Shown here: positions 231 to 13,219 of the stretch, piece by piece
Numbering within the stretch: position 1 is the stretch's first letter
Layout of the letters: every line of letters starts with the position of its first letter
Assembly (NCBI GenBank): GCA_029226975.1
Contig: JAQXZB010000119.1
Coordinates: 1-39,469, forward strand
DNA from: Clostridiales bacterium
Lineage (GTDB): Bacteria; Bacillota; Clostridia; UBA1381
Reading direction: 5' to 3'
Length of the DNA: 39,469 nt
Translations under genes and position numbers: made by a program
The notes under the pieces: model-generated
Database searches by the model: none
What the model was told of the DNA's origin: nothing
Seen by the model: the letters and a program-made list of their open reading frames with translations, nothing else

Positions 231-1592
<1,362 letters not shown>

Positions 1593-1897: not shown

Positions 1898-1926
1898 TTG
1901 TATTTGGGGTGCTGTTGTGGTATAAT
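1898..1926 (+). promoter_or_regulatory. sigma-A promoter of the Rpn nuclease gene
   Basis: TTGTAT (1898-1903), 17-bp spacer, TATAAT (1921-1926). The expected start near 1933 leaves only about 17 nt before the ATG, just enough to include the AGGAGG at 1935-1940. Confidence 0.7.
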
Positions 1927-1949
1927 TACGGTAAAGGAGGCTGATACCC

Positions 1950-2771
1950 ATGGCGCGAAATATTGTTAAAGCAAAGCTTGATGTAATATTCAAGAAGATG
2001 TTTACCGATGCCAAGAACGAGAATTTCCTAAAATGCTTTATTTCCGATATTTTGGATATTCCCTATGATGATATAGAGCATATGGCCATAGAAAATTCGG
2101 AAATAACCCCGGAGGAAATTGACGGAAAATTCACACGTTTTGATTTAAGGCTTACGGTGAATAATTCACTGGTAAATGTAGAGGTACAGATGAGCAACAG
2201 GAACGATTTCCCCGCACGAAGTCTGTATTACTGGGCGCAGATTTACGGCAATCAGCTTAAAAAGGGCGAAAGCTACAGTGATTTGCGTCCCACCATATCG
2301 ATAAACATTGTGAACTATTCGATTTTCCAAACAGATGATTACTATTCAAAATTCACCATGGCAGACCTGGAGCATGGAACGGTTTTGACGAATAAATGTG
2401 CAATTCATTATTTTGAGCTGTCAAAAATCAACCGTAAGCCGGACTCTGCCGACAGGAAAAAGCTGTGGATGCAGCTGATAAATTCCGAATCGGAGGAGGA
2501 GTTGGATATGTTAAATAAGACCCAAGTACCCGCAATACAGCAGGGCGTATCTATAATTCGCGAAATGAGCGAGGACGAGCGCACCCGCGAAATGGAGCGG
2601 CGCAGAGAGGACGCTTTGCGCGAGGAGATAAGCGCACTTGAATATGTGGGGCAACAGAAAAAAGCCGAGGGCATTGCCGAGGGCGAAGCAAAAAAAGAAA
2701 TCCAAGTGGCGCGAAATTTACGCAGGCTCGGCTTTAGTGAGGATATTATCCAAGCGGCTATAAGCGATTAA
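1950..2771 (+). CDS. Rpn-family PD-(D/E)XK nuclease (putative transposase family)
   Basis: A 273-residue member of the Rpn / PDDEXK_2 family, often labelled 'nuclease family transposase'. Known Rpn proteins are DNA endonucleases that promote RecA-independent recombination and can act in phage defence. The nuclease core is at the N-terminus: D65 in FDLRLTV and the E-x-Q pair in NVEVQ (E78, Q80). The C-terminal third (about 180-273) is charged, helical and rich in Glu/Lys/Arg, ending LGFSEDIIQAA. The ATG at 1950 sits 9 bases after AGGAGG. An internal start at codon 187 also has a strong Shine-Dalgarno (listed separately). A small gene repeating the C-terminal segment follows after 21 bases. No terminal inverted repeats were seen, so there is no sign that the locus itself is an insertion sequence. 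Confidence 0.85.
   Translation: MARNIVKAKLDVIFKKMFTDAKNENFLKCFISDILDIPYDDIEHMAIENSEITPEEIDGKFTRFDLRLTVNNSLVNVEVQMSNRNDFPARSLYYWAQIYGNQLKKGESYSDLRPTISINIVNYSIFQTDDYYSKFTMADLEHGTVLTNKCAIHYFELSKINRKPDSADRKKLWMQLINSESEEELDMLNKTQVPAIQQGVSIIREMSEDERTREMERRREDALREEISALEYVGQQKKAEGIAEGEAKKEIQVARNLRRLGFSEDIIQAAISD
2492..2510 (+). promoter_or_regulatory. internal Shine-Dalgarno and ATG inside the Rpn gene
   Basis: GGAGGAGGA (2492-2500) precedes an in-frame ATG (2508-2510) with a 7-base gap, a near-ideal ribosome binding site. The purine run also encodes consecutive Glu codons, so chance is possible. Confidence 0.5.
2508..2771 (+). CDS. possible short C-terminal Rpn product from internal start
   Basis: Translation from codon 187 (MLNKTQVPAI...) would give an 87-residue protein containing only the C-terminal helical region, without the nuclease residues. 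Work on E. coli RpnA showed that a short C-terminal form made from an internal start can inhibit the full-length toxic nuclease. The same layout is visible here: internal AGGAGG, correct spacing, same frame, same stop. The stand-alone downstream gene (79 residues) encodes nearly the same segment, which supports the idea that this part is useful on its own. That the short form is made or acts as an antitoxin is inference. Confidence 0.4.
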   Translation: MLNKTQVPAIQQGVSIIREMSEDERTREMERRREDALREEISALEYVGQQKKAEGIAEGEAKKEIQVARNLRRLGFSEDIIQAAISD

Positions 2772-2782
2772 GTCTGATACGG
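2555..2782 (+). repeat. direct repeat, copy 1 (3' end of Rpn gene)
   Basis: This 3' part of the Rpn gene, through its stop codon and the following TAAGTCTGATACGG, is repeated at 2828-3043. The match is close to perfect from 2589 onward and weaker before that. Copy 1 has 12 extra bases (four codons, IAEG region). Confidence 0.9.
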
Positions 2783-2792
2783 AGGGAAAACA

Positions 2793-3032
2793 ATGTCTGA
2801 ACATATTGTAGACGGATGCAAGTTTGTTATTCGCGAGTATACCGAGGAGGAGCGCGCTATTGAAATGGAGCGGCGCAGAGAGGACGCTTTGCGCGAGGAG
2901 ATAAGCGCGCTTGAATATGTGGGGCAACAGAAAAAAGCCGAGGGCGAAGCAAAAAAAGAAGCGGAAGTGGTGCGAAATTTACGCAAGCTCGGCTTTGGTG
3001 AGGATATTATCCAAGCGGCTATAAGCGATTAA
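2793..3032 (+). CDS. stand-alone Rpn C-terminal fragment (duplicate, possible regulator)
   Basis: A 79-residue product whose residues from about 12 on match the C-terminus of the preceding Rpn nuclease, including MERRREDALREEISALEY and the end LGFGEDIIQAAISD. It has no nuclease domain. It carries its own ribosome binding site (GGAGGG at 2781-2786) and ATG, and a new short N-terminus (MSEHIVDGCKF). It lies 21 bases after the nuclease stop, presumably on the same transcript, and ends before a strong terminator. It may be the remnant of a deleted second Rpn gene, or a functional small partner or inhibitor of the nuclease. The intact frame and good Shine-Dalgarno favour a translated gene, but the function is unproven. 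Confidence 0.6.
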   Translation: MSEHIVDGCKFVIREYTEEERAIEMERRREDALREEISALEYVGQQKKAEGEAKKEAEVVRNLRKLGFGEDIIQAAISD

Positions 3033-3043
3033 GTCTGATACGG
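2828..3043 (+). repeat. direct repeat, copy 2
   Basis: Second copy of the Rpn 3' segment. It is offset by 273 bases at its left part and 261 at its right part because of a 12-base in-frame difference. It ends with the same TAAGTCTGATACGG as copy 1. Confidence 0.9.
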
Positions 3044-3068
3044 CAAAAGATAACATAAGCCCCTATAC

Positions 3069-3095
3069 AAAAAGGACGCGGCGGCGTCCTTTTTT
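3069..3095 (+). terminator. terminator of the Rpn operon
   Basis: An 11-bp perfect stem AAAAAGGACGC / GCGTCCTTTTT with a GGCG loop is followed by a T run (3090-3095). Confidence 0.9.
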
Positions 3096-8518: not shown

Positions 8519-11500
8519 TTAACGAACGGGAACTGTTGTTGTTGCACCGTCTGCGTCTGTTATTGTATATGAAGCGTTTGCATCGATTATATCACTGTAG
8601 CCAAGCTCCGCAAGTCCGTCCGCTACCATACCTGCGAATATCATCGCGCCGTAGTAGGTGGAGTGAAGCTTATCGCCTACATTTATATTAGCCGCACAGT
8701 ACGTTGTACCCAAAGGCTCCATGTAAGCAAAGCTTGTGCCGGAGAGGTTGAAGCAGCTTGCTCCAAGCTCCTGTGCCTTTGCGATTACGGAGTCGGTACC
8801 CTGAACGGAGGCTTTCCAGCCCGTACCATGCACCGATGCGTTCGGAGTTACGAATACCACGTCTATGCCCGCGGCTGTTGCTTCGTTATACACCCGTTCC
8901 ATATAGTTTTGCATATTCTCATACCTTACCGCTTCCGAGCCAAGGCTTGCCGGATAGTTTCTATCGTTATAGCCGCACTCGAACACCAGCAGGTCACCGG
9001 GCTGTGCACACTGAATAACGGTCTTAAATACGGTATCATAAAGACCCTGTGCATAGTTTCCGCTTTCTGCCAAGTTTGTAACGTTTACGCTGTCAACGAT
9101 AAACTTATCGATTACCTCGCCCCAGCCGGTCTGTGCTTCGGTTTCAACAGTGAAATCTCCGTAGTAGTTCGCCACAAGAGAGTCACCCAGAACATACACA
9201 TGCTGTTTTCTCTCCAATATAGAGGGAGCTTTCTTTACGGTAAAGTAATCCACATACTGACCGCCCGCTGCATAGCCCTCCATTGCCAGAACAGCCTTTC
9301 CGCCGGTTATTTTTACATCATTTGCCGTATACAGTGAGCCGGCACGTGTTCTGCCTGCGCTGCTTTGGTCAACATTATTACCTACGATATAGCCGTTTAC
9401 GGTCAAGTCACCTCTTTCTTTCTGCGACTTTTTAACGGTCACGTCATACAGACCCTCGACAAGAGCAAGCTCCACGCCCTTTGACGCATCGCCCACATCT
9501 GATACGGTATATATGGGTGATACCTCATACTTTGACGCATTTGCCGTATTAACGGTTACAGTGCCGTTTTCGGATGCGGTTTCGGTTTGTGTATATGTTC
9601 CGTCATTGTTTAAAACGGTTACGCGATACTGTGTATCTGCGCTGTAGTTAGCAATCTTTGTTACGTCTACGGTTGTTGTATCCCCGCTGACAGTTCCTGC
9701 TTCATAGAATTTGCCTACAGTTACGGTAATGGTCTTTTCAGAGGTCTTTTGAGGATTACCCACAACTGCCTTTACAACCACTTCACCGGATGCGGATACT
9801 GTGGTTATGTCAAGGTCGGCGGGCTTCATGCCATACAGGGACTTCCATACGAATACTTTTTCATTTTCTCCCGATGTCAAGTCAACGGTTTCGCCCGCCT
9901 TAACCTCGGTTTGGGTCATGGACTTTAACACGCCGTTTTCATATACCGCGCTTATTCTTACCGCGTCCTCTTGGGCAACTGCCGCCTTTTGGGTAAGCGG
10001 AGTAAGTGTTCCGTCCGAAGAAATGCTTGCCACATCGGCTCCCGATGCTATTTCATAGCTTACCGGCAAAGCCGCGTTTACATCATACTCATCAACAATA
10101 TTGCTTACGGTATATTTTGCGGTTTGAGCCGCGTCAACAGCTATAGGTCCATCGAAATCAAAGGACTTAACCGCCGCATAATCCTTTATTGTAACCTGCT
10201 TTGAATTGGTCTTTTCCGGGTCAAGATTGCTTGTATATGTAACTGTTACAACAGTTTCGGGCACTGCGCTTTCCTCAACCGACAGCACACCGTCCTCTGA
10301 AATGGTTACACCCTGGGCATCTGACACGCTCCAAGCAAAGGTTTCGCCCTCGGATACGGAGAATATCGATGCAGTATACTGAATTTTTGCGGTTGTTCCG
10401 GAAATTCTTGCGGCGTTATCCGCACCTCTTACTTCAACCTCTGCCACGTCCGAATCGGAAATCTTAAGGTCTGTAAGAGTTATAAGTCTTGTTGCCGGAC
10501 AGCCCTTATCGTCATGCATTGTATAGGAAGCTATATCGCCAAGGTTTGCTCCCAAGTCTTTTTCGATTGAGGTACCGTTATACTGCAAAGCCGCAATCGT
10601 ATTGCCGTCTGCATCGGTTTTTAGGATGAACACCGCTTCGGTTTCCTCACCTGCCGCACCCATAGTGCCTATCTGTGTTCCCACTACTTTGCCTTTATCG
10701 TCTTTATAGGCGTCAACAACAATGTTTACACCGGTAAAGGTGATTTTTAGCACCTCTGCGCCGTTGGAATTTTTAAACACAAGGTTTCTGTAAGCGGTAT
10801 ACACCGTATTTTCCTGCCATGTATTTTTAAAGGAGATTTTCTTTGCGCTTCCCGGCGTAAGCTCTACGGGGTCGGGAAGTGTAATTGTTGTTTCGGCAGA
10901 CGCGTCATACAGACCGGGGAATACAACAACATTCTCACCGTTTACCTCTGCCATTCTCGGCTCGCCGTAGGAGGCTTCGCCCCTGCCCGGCTCATAATAG
11001 TCATAACCGTAAACGGTTATATCCTTTGTTTTTGTCACACCGTCAACAACCGCCGTAACGGTAAGTGCCGATTCGGTGGAAATTCCCAAATTGGGGGTTA
11101 ATACCGCACCGTCAAACGCCGCTTTTGCATCGCTTACGCTAAATACCGCTTCGGTATAATCGGTATCGTTTCCGTATTGGTCCTTAACGTCCTTAATTGT
11201 ATACTGCACACTTGCGCCGTCCTTTACAGCCAAAGGACCGCCGATTGAAAAGTCTGCAACTCTTGCCGTATTATACACATGAACCTTTGTATCGGCATAA
11301 ACCGTCGGATCTGTTGTGCTTGCGGCTCTTACTACAAGGTCAATTCCGTTATCGTCCGTAAGGGCTGCCTGCGAGGTTACGGAAACAACTCCGTCCTCGG
11401 ATATGGAAATACCATCCAATGCATTGGTTATTGACCAGGTTACGCTGTCATTATCTATTGCATAGCCGGCCGCGTCCTTTACAACCGCGCTGAATGCCGG

Positions 11501-13219
11501 AATTGTATTTGTTCCCTCGGCGGGCTTATAGATACTTTCCGCGCCGCCCGAAATTTCAACGCTTGACGGGGTCTGCACACCGAGATATGTAAGTGTAATG
11601 GGAACGTTCTGCGCCGCGCTGTCCACAACAACACCCGTTGTTGCCGGAGCGTAAAGCGAGCAGGTTATATCTGCCGAATATGAGCCGTTGGGCAGGCTTA
11701 TTGTAGCCTTACCGTCAGCGTCCGTAACGGCGCTTACGCCGCCGGCTTCTACCGTTGCGCCCGCAACAGCCGCACCGGCTGTGTCTTTTACCTCGAAGGT
11801 TACATCATAGAGGTCTCCGCGCAAAACCATGAAATCATCAATCTTCATCGGCGACAGGGACTCAACGTTGACAGCTTTTAAGCCCGCAAGATTTGACGCG
11901 GTCAAATCAACATCACTAAAGCTTGCCGCTACTGTTCCCTCGCTGTTTGTTATTGTTCCGCTTAATTTGCCGTTGGCAAAATCAGCCTGCAAATCTATTG
12001 TATAGAAGTTATTATCGACTTGCGTAAGCTGTGTATATCCGCCGTAATTATCATCAAAACCATAGGAAATCAGTTGTTTCCATGCTTGACCGGCTTTATT
12101 TGTAGCCGCGCCTATGGCAAAAATCACAGTCCCCGACTTATCGGTCAGTGCAAAGTATGAAAAACGTCCTCCGTTTGTATTTGTAAAATCGGTATCCGCT
12201 CCCCATTTAAAGCTTATATTAACCGCCGGCTGCGACAGCACCTTGCCCTCAAATGCTTTTGTATCAGTGTTCTTTGAACCGTTTGTGTTACAAAGTGTAA
12301 GATACTTATTTGATTCCGCTTCCTTGAGTGCCACTCCGCTTGTGGTTGTAAAGCCCCAAGTATCCGTAATATCTTCAAAGCCCTCATAGATAAAATGGTC
12401 TACCGCTTCAAATTCTATATCAAGCACATCGCCCTCGGCAACGCTGTCTATGGTTGTTATGGCATTTGCCGACATTACATAGAGAACTCCGTCAATAAGC
12501 TTGCAGCCCTTTTGAGCCGCGGTTGCATTATACGGAAGCCCTATATCCGCCGATACGGTATATGAAGCTATCACTTTATCACCGACAACATTGTTTACGG
12601 TTATATCCGTTGTTGTTATTACCTCGTCCGAATATTCTATTTCAAGGCTTATATCAAAAAGCTGCTGCTGTCTGCCCGTATATGTATACAAGCCGTAGGC
12701 AATCACGCCGTCCTCATCGCTTCTTACATTGCTTGTAAGGTCATATTCCAATGTTGACTGAGTGGATTTTGAGTTTCCCACAGTTCCCAGTTCAACCGCC
12801 GTTTGGACCTCCGCCTGAGAAGACCAGGTTATTGTCGACGGCTCCCAGTCCGTACCTATGGAGGCTACCTTTATATCGGAATTTTTGCCTGCAACGGTAC
12901 AAACCGCGTCAAACTTCAGCTTTGCCGATGTGATTTTTCCGAGATAGTCGGAAACGTCAAATTTAACAAGTGTAACATCGGTTCCGCCGAAGGTGGACAG
13001 CATCCCCTTAAACAGTCCCGCGCTTATTTGAGACTGATTGGCATAAAGCACGCCCGCATCATGGTAGTTGGTATCGGCATTACATTCGTTTATGTAGGTT
13101 GCGTCCGCCGCGATACTTGCGGTATTTGCCGCGCTTGCTACGGTGCCGAAGCCTGCAAGCATGGTTGCCGAAAGCGCCAGCGCCGTTACGGATGAAACAA
13201 TTTTTTTGAAATTTTTCAT
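8519..13219 (-). CDS. secreted multidomain SGNH/GDSL esterase (rhamnogalacturonan-acetylesterase-like)
   Basis: A 1566-residue extracellular protein. Order: signal peptide (1-31); a DNRLRE/CBM96-like carbohydrate-binding domain (about 35-200); a probable concanavalin-like beta domain (about 270-460); a carboxypeptidase-regulatory-like repeat with AAVAGATVEAGG; several Big-type Ig-like domains (560-1250) marked by 'ISEDGVVSV' and 'TISEDGVLSV'; and a C-terminal SGNH hydrolase with GDS (S1347), GYND (1416-1419) and the DxxH pair (D1516, H1519). The SGNH part resembles family CE12 / RhgT esterases that deacetylate pectin backbones, so a pectin substrate is likely but not proven. There is no SLH, sortase or dockerin signal, so it is probably released or held by its binding domains. 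The ATG is preceded by GAGGGAG. Confidence 0.85.
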   Translation of the reverse strand: MKNFKKIVSSVTALALSATMLAGFGTVASAANTASIAADATYINECNADTNYHDAGVLYANQSQISAGLFKGMLSTFGGTDVTLVKFDVSDYLGKITSAKLKFDAVCTVAGKNSDIKVASIGTDWEPSTITWSSQAEVQTAVELGTVGNSKSTQSTLEYDLTSNVRSDEDGVIAYGLYTYTGRQQQLFDISLEIEYSDEVITTTDITVNNVVGDKVIASYTVSADIGLPYNATAAQKGCKLIDGVLYVMSANAITTIDSVAEGDVLDIEFEAVDHFIYEGFEDITDTWGFTTTSGVALKEAESNKYLTLCNTNGSKNTDTKAFEGKVLSQPAVNISFKWGADTDFTNTNGGRFSYFALTDKSGTVIFAIGAATNKAGQAWKQLISYGFDDNYGGYTQLTQVDNNFYTIDLQADFANGKLSGTITNSEGTVAASFSDVDLTASNLAGLKAVNVESLSPMKIDDFMVLRGDLYDVTFEVKDTAGAAVAGATVEAGGVSAVTDADGKATISLPNGSYSADITCSLYAPATTGVVVDSAAQNVPITLTYLGVQTPSSVEISGGAESIYKPAEGTNTIPAFSAVVKDAAGYAIDNDSVTWSITNALDGISISEDGVVSVTSQAALTDDNGIDLVVRAASTTDPTVYADTKVHVYNTARVADFSIGGPLAVKDGASVQYTIKDVKDQYGNDTDYTEAVFSVSDAKAAFDGAVLTPNLGISTESALTVTAVVDGVTKTKDITVYGYDYYEPGRGEASYGEPRMAEVNGENVVVFPGLYDASAETTITLPDPVELTPGSAKKISFKNTWQENTVYTAYRNLVFKNSNGAEVLKITFTGVNIVVDAYKDDKGKVVGTQIGTMGAAGEETEAVFILKTDADGNTIAALQYNGTSIEKDLGANLGDIASYTMHDDKGCPATRLITLTDLKISDSDVAEVEVRGADNAARISGTTAKIQYTASIFSVSEGETFAWSVSDAQGVTISEDGVLSVEESAVPETVVTVTYTSNLDPEKTNSKQVTIKDYAAVKSFDFDGPIAVDAAQTAKYTVSNIVDEYDVNAALPVSYEIASGADVASISSDGTLTPLTQKAAVAQEDAVRISAVYENGVLKSMTQTEVKAGETVDLTSGENEKVFVWKSLYGMKPADLDITTVSASGEVVVKAVVGNPQKTSEKTITVTVGKFYEAGTVSGDTTTVDVTKIANYSADTQYRVTVLNNDGTYTQTETASENGTVTVNTANASKYEVSPIYTVSDVGDASKGVELALVEGLYDVTVKKSQKERGDLTVNGYIVGNNVDQSSAGRTRAGSLYTANDVKITGGKAVLAMEGYAAGGQYVDYFTVKKAPSILERKQHVYVLGDSLVANYYGDFTVETEAQTGWGEVIDKFIVDSVNVTNLAESGNYAQGLYDTVFKTVIQCAQPGDLLVFECGYNDRNYPASLGSEAVRYENMQNYMERVYNEATAAGIDVVFVTPNASVHGTGWKASVQGTDSVIAKAQELGASCFNLSGTSFAYMEPLGTTYCAANINVGDKLHSTYYGAMIFAGMVADGLAELGYSDIIDANASYTITDADGATTTVPVR

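Follow-up and report, generated by a model that had tools for sequence, protein, structure and literature searches.

The window, a stretch of 39,469 nucleotides from a Clostridiales bacterium, probably carries a toxin-antitoxin locus of the Rpn family (RpnL/RpnS, PF12784 type), in which an RpnS antitoxin is nested in the nuclease gene and accompanied by a non-matching rpnS-like duplicate (Table 1). In the mechanism that we propose, a single mRNA would give rise to the RpnL nuclease and to an 87-residue RpnS protein, the latter by initiation at a ribosome site inside the nuclease gene, at codon 187. RpnS would contain the long repeat-bearing helix of RpnL and should bind and silence RpnL. A second, rpnS-like C-terminal gene, likely in the same operon, arose by tandem duplication of the 3' end of the nuclease gene and has its own start and first residues. 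The middle of the rpnS-like gene has hardly diverged from the parent, for which gene conversion is the probable cause, and its protein is devoid of one four-residue unit of the helix. At this locus, RpnL is presumably toxic, bound by RpnS and involved in phage defence. With this locus, the genes-within-genes design of Rpn also covers a gut clostridial nuclease of the PF12784 type.

Table 1. Features of the rpn locus (window coordinates)
Feature	Position	Strand	Basis
Promoter TATAAT (1921-1926) and ribosome site AAAGGAGG (1933-1940) upstream of RpnL	1921..1940	+	by eye
RpnL, full-length Rpn nuclease, 273 aa	1950..2771	+	PF12784 and TIGR01784 matches; D11, D65, E78, Q80 and R90 present
Internal Shine-Dalgarno GGAGGAGGA	2492..2500	+	sequence; codon-level selection in relatives
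Nested RpnS, predicted 87-aa antitoxin, start at codon 187	2508..2771	+	sequence and codon-level selection
Parent copy of duplicated segment (direct repeat to 2829-3044)	2556..2783	+	alignment
Extra 12-bp (four-residue) unit, parent only	2664..2675	+	alignment
Ribosome-binding site GGAGGG of stand-alone gene	2781..2786	+	sequence
Stand-alone rpnS-like gene of 79 aa; residues 1 to 11-12 are new and precede the C-terminal segment of the parent minus one repeat	2793..3032	+	sequence, alignment
Intrinsic terminator downstream of stand-alone gene	3069..3094	+	terminator scan

The nuclease gene and its setting

By its profile matches, RpnL belongs to the Rpn nucleases (COG5464; PF12784/TIGR01784), and its PD-(D/E)XK domain has, as far as the sequence tells, an intact set of active-site residues. 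The product matches PF12784 with an E value of 9e-47 and 160 bits (cut-off 27.4) and TIGR01784 with an E value of 4.5e-41 and 141.5 bits (cut-off 52.1), which bears out the nuclease identity assigned in an earlier sequence-only reading of this DNA. The equivalents of the RpnL residues in RpnA are D11, D63, E82, Q84 and R94 (PMC5350276), and mutants indicate that D63, E82 and Q84 are required for RpnA activity (PMC5350276). Their RpnL counterparts D65, E78 and Q80, as well as R90, are invariant across an alignment of eight relatives. Upstream of the gene, a weak TTGTAT element (1898-1903) is recognized by eye at a 17-nt spacer from the TATAAT box; the promoter is unlisted in the consensus promoter scan because its -35 element is weak.

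In the host genome, the stand-alone copy is the sole Rpn match besides RpnL, and a search of two genomes of the same genus retrieved no Rpn gene. Neither RpnL nor the 79-residue protein matches a PADLOC defence profile at an E value of 0.01; the database dates from 2023, and its lack of an Rpn model says little. The examined parts of the window contain no defence island. The neighbours are ordinary and consist of a glutamate-dehydrogenase-like gene, assigned from its sequence (231-1577, minus strand), and a gene for a large S-layer-homology protein (PF00395; 3179-6301, minus strand). Farther away, a 1566-residue open reading frame (8519-13219, minus strand) has no Pfam match at an E value of 0.001. 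In viral contigs, RpnL has one distant relative and the 79-residue protein has none, and a sequence search of solved structures gave no meaningful match.

The internal start

Relatives conserve the internal start at codon 187, and synonymous codon choice indicates that it is under codon-level selection, as expected of a nested RpnS antitoxin. The sequence-only reading had described a Shine-Dalgarno sequence, a 7-base spacing and an in-frame ATG that opens an 87-residue product, and this description is exact in both coordinates and sequence: region 2492-2510 consists of GGAGGAGGA, the spacer GTTGGAT and the ATG at 2508. Because the Glu-Glu-Glu-x-x-Met motif is conserved as protein and the Shine-Dalgarno-like string could be its by-product, synonymous codons were shuffled within each of 81 distinct relatives, and a Shine-Dalgarno match was defined as at least 5 nt. 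The relatives were collected by degenerate patterns that partly cover this motif and that fix amino acids, not codons. A start codon is found in the codon-187 column in 58 of the 81 relatives, and 57 of these 58 possess a Shine-Dalgarno sequence, compared with 22.2 expected from the shuffle. The neighbouring column contributes 19 further relatives with ATG, 18 of which have a Shine-Dalgarno sequence (8.2 expected), and 77 of the 81 relatives thus contain a start codon in either of the two columns. None of the other internal columns in these relatives equals the codon-187 excess, and the native start columns, which serve as a positive control, also stand out.

When each 70%-identity cluster is represented by one sequence, the Shine-Dalgarno count is 23/24 versus 8.1 expected (P about 1e-12). 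The excess weakens at 50% identity (7/8 versus 3.7, P 0.017), as expected with only 11 sequences. In the printed relatives, GAG GAG encodes the first two Glu residues, whereas the third codon varies (GAA, GAG or GAT), and these fixed codons represent sequence evidence of selection keeping the internal start. A chance Shine-Dalgarno string from Glu codons is ruled out by the synonymous shuffle, and the whole internal start is most improbable as a by-product of the protein motif: although the three Glu residues and M187 are invariant in the first eight aligned relatives and shuffling by itself yields a Shine-Dalgarno sequence in about 38%, the observed 57/58 far exceeds the 22 expected and the effect survives 70%-identity clustering. 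In a second sample from the wider class Clostridia, the overall internal-start excess is weaker (28 genes versus 19 expected), and two columns clearly exceed the null (14/18 versus 5.6 and 7/7 versus 2.3).

The stand-alone gene

The sequence-only reading held that a downstream 79-residue gene with its own GGAGGG and ATG repeats the C-terminal segment of the nuclease. The repetition is real, but the gene is not an exact freed copy of the 87-residue product. Its ATG is located 6 bases after GGAGGG, and a gap of 21 nt separates it from the parent gene. The direct repeat comprises a 117-nt part that is 90% identical (2556-2672/2829-2945) and a 107-nt part that is 93% identical (2676-2782/2937-3043). 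It starts 48 nt 3' of the internal ATG and leaves the internal start outside the duplication. The stand-alone protein opens with 11-12 residues (MSEHIVDGCKFV) that have no relation to the parent, and the 12-bp unit that is missing from the copy encodes the four residues IAEG (in register AEGI). About 11 nt on the 3' side of the stop codon also belong to the repeat, which shows that DNA was duplicated, not protein alone. No forward terminator is listed between 2771 and 2793, and a terminator follows the stand-alone gene; the parent and the stand-alone gene are therefore likely, on this sequence evidence, to constitute one operon.

The stand-alone protein is predicted to fold into a long helix (residues 18-66) and a short helix (residues 70-78), with a mean pLDDT of 82.5 and a pTM of 0.41 from 13 sequences. 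This prediction is consistent with the dimerisation helix described as carrying the repeats and is no proof of function.

How is the copy related to its parent? In 29 parent-copy pairs, including that of the window, DNA identity is near background (0.55-0.59) farther than 19 codons upstream of the conserved RExxLHDEA segment, climbs over the next codons and reaches 0.93-0.97 from this segment onward. The Asp residue of the parental 'MSED', present in nearly all parents, is replaced by Glu in many copies (TSEE, MSEE, NSEE, YTEE or MSPE); the copies that share this Glu are those of L102, L078, L089, L107, L070, L072, L067 and the window. These observations hint that the stand-alone genes may be an older lineage of their own in which homogenisation with the parent is confined to the 3' part, although the segment is short.

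Detached copies in other genomes

The layout is frequent among the close Rpn relatives of the window and rare elsewhere in Clostridia. A genome search for Rpn genes followed by C-terminal-only genes, as proposed in the sequence-only reading, shows that the layout recurs in related genomes. The first sample comprised 78 distinct full-length genes, mostly from Oscillospiraceae/Ruminococcus-type MAGs, for which 350 nt or more of the downstream region was available. Of these genes, 23 are followed on the same strand by one C-terminal-only gene or several, in most cases no more than 30 nt after the stop. Several stand-alone genes (L091, L132, L070 and L072) start at the equivalent of codon 187. Copies also form arrays of two (L070, L072, L089 and L090) or three (L103), and some loci contain truncated copies (L107 and L108). 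In the second sample, 3 of 67 genes from the wider class have a stand-alone copy, and two of these three lie within a tandem Rpn array of a one-contig genome (L194).

Two loci from the same bacterial family, G027:C29 (L067/L007) and G043:C106 (L103/L023), resemble the window in that a PF12784 nuclease is directly followed by one or three copies, respectively. They differ from the window in repeat numbers and sequences, and the G043 locus is a three-copy array. In this array, the three copies lie in a row downstream of the parent (3001-3747 of L103) and deviate from it by -2, +1 and +7 units. The L194 array (G316:C1:2078300-2086000) contains six tandem full-length Rpn genes and at least two interspersed C-terminal-only copies.

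Repeat number of parent and copy

The copy in the window has one four-residue unit fewer than its parent and does not show the equal unit number of a cognate antitoxin. In the first sample, parent and copy are unequal in tail length (conserved segment through to the stop) in all 29 pairs. For 21 of these pairs, the difference in residues is divisible by four, two of the 21 being badly truncated copies, and the remaining pairs include end truncations, undetermined bases and diverged C-termini. Tail lengths also differ in all three pairs from other Clostridia. For E. coli rpnE/ypaA, ten genomes in which both genes were read fully and four that were judged by gene lengths display seven parent/copy length combinations, none of which matches. 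Short-read assemblies might collapse exact duplicates, an objection that applies neither to the one-contig genome G316 nor to the E. coli genomes, which are complete. Selection for mismatch is nevertheless unsupported. When copies are permuted among parents, zero matches occur in 62% of the shuffles for Clostridia and in 57% for the E. coli haplotypes, and the permutation reveals neither avoidance nor matching (P(0) 0.62). The mismatch is therefore the outcome expected of independent and fast repeat slippage.

According to the text of Zhong et al. 2023 (PMC10327210), one repeat added to either RpnC partner abolishes neutralisation, whereas addition to both restores it. Since the copy in the window is one unit short, poor neutralisation of the parent is predicted, and the copy may be a weak antidote to that parent or none at all.

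Possible roles of the stand-alone gene

What is the biological function of the stand-alone gene? The sequence-only reading regarded the locus as the source of two antitoxin-like proteins, one nested and one freed. The nested protein fits this reading well, given its conserved and codon-selected start, but the role of the stand-alone protein as a second antidote is doubtful in view of the one-unit mismatch and the RpnC analogy. Among the explanations below, the first has the best, though still minor, chance of being correct: the gene may be a decaying and functionless by-product of tandem duplication. The window pair exhibits 1.7 synonymous versus 6.3 non-synonymous changes, so the copy may be diverging or decaying and purifying selection is unsupported for it; truncated copies and the scarcity of copies in other Clostridia (3/67) point in the same direction. 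However, pN/pS pooled over the parent-copy pairs is 0.29, which indicates constraint at the sequence level, albeit in divergence that is shared by parent and copy. Decay also sits poorly with the 23/78 loci in which the copies are open frames with start codons, immediately downstream and on the same strand, in some cases in arrays of two or three.

A rather unlikely explanation is that the 79-residue protein is a second working antitoxin that adds dose against the same target, its own parent. The helix and the C-terminal bundle are nearly unchanged, the gene has its own ribosome-binding site in a shared operon, and the ypaA protein of E. coli K-12 is made, as detected by an SPA tag (PMC10327210, in the text). 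Against this explanation stand the missing unit, in light of the RpnC result, and the unequal tails in 29/29 pairs, in 3/3 pairs from other Clostridia and in every E. coli rpnE/ypaA haplotype read.

The copy may, with a comparably low likelihood, act as an antidote to other Rpn alleles that arrive horizontally with a matching repeat number, or as a silencer of a former parental allele. The text of Zhong et al. 2023 (PMC10327210) reports that specificity is set by repeat number and that rpn genes differ in copy number and undergo horizontal transfer, and the tail lengths of copy and parent are uncorrelated beyond chance. The permutation, which leaves selection for mismatch undemonstrated, weakens this explanation. 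More speculatively, and with a slightly smaller chance of being right, stand-alone RpnS genes might be a separately maintained, non-matching set in which the 3' part is tied to the parent by gene conversion and the repeat number is free; they would then confer immunity to other Rpn alleles or preserve a trace of earlier repeat states. With the locus in the window, the so far unexplained detached antitoxins offer a clean test: they may neutralise the nuclease beside them, or just those nucleases that share their repeat number.

Relation to known Rpn systems

The layout of a nested antitoxin plus a stand-alone copy is already described from E. coli, and the window contains a further case. The sequence-only reading knew of no stand-alone copy beside its parent, a statement that is contradicted by the text of Zhong et al. 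2023 (PMC10327210), which reports stand-alone RpnS genes beside the parent for rpnE/ypaA and rpnC. The same text describes a nested RpnS that neutralises RpnL in E. coli, variation in four-residue repeats and tandem arrays of rpn genes. In this text, we found no description of codon-level selection marking the internal start, of how often detached copies occur in the present group or of a systematic repeat mismatch between parent and detached copy.

In the rpnE/ypaA locus, as in the window, a full-length Rpn gene with an internal start precedes a stand-alone C-terminal gene that begins about 20 nt or less downstream in the same orientation, and in K-12 the two copies likewise differ by exactly one 12-bp repeat. 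The two loci differ in several respects. RpnE is of the Transposase_31/YhgA type and is annotated as inactive in K-12, whereas the window nuclease is of the PF12784 type. ypaA begins exactly at the equivalent of the internal start, whereas the copy in the window has new first residues. Relative to its parent, the copy has one unit more in K-12 (ypaA) and one unit fewer in the window.

The rpn gene (RpnL/RpnS) of Clostridioides difficile is a Gram-positive example with a nested RpnS, like that predicted here. Its nested RpnS is produced in E. coli and is lost upon mutation of the ribosome-binding site and start, as reported in the text of PMC10327210; unlike the window, no stand-alone copy is mentioned for it in the main text of that paper. 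In E. coli strain EC20 (L153), the stand-alone copy of rpnE has been lost by fusion, and the resulting single gene ends in the ypaA-type AANNH rather than in the rpnE-type PNCH.
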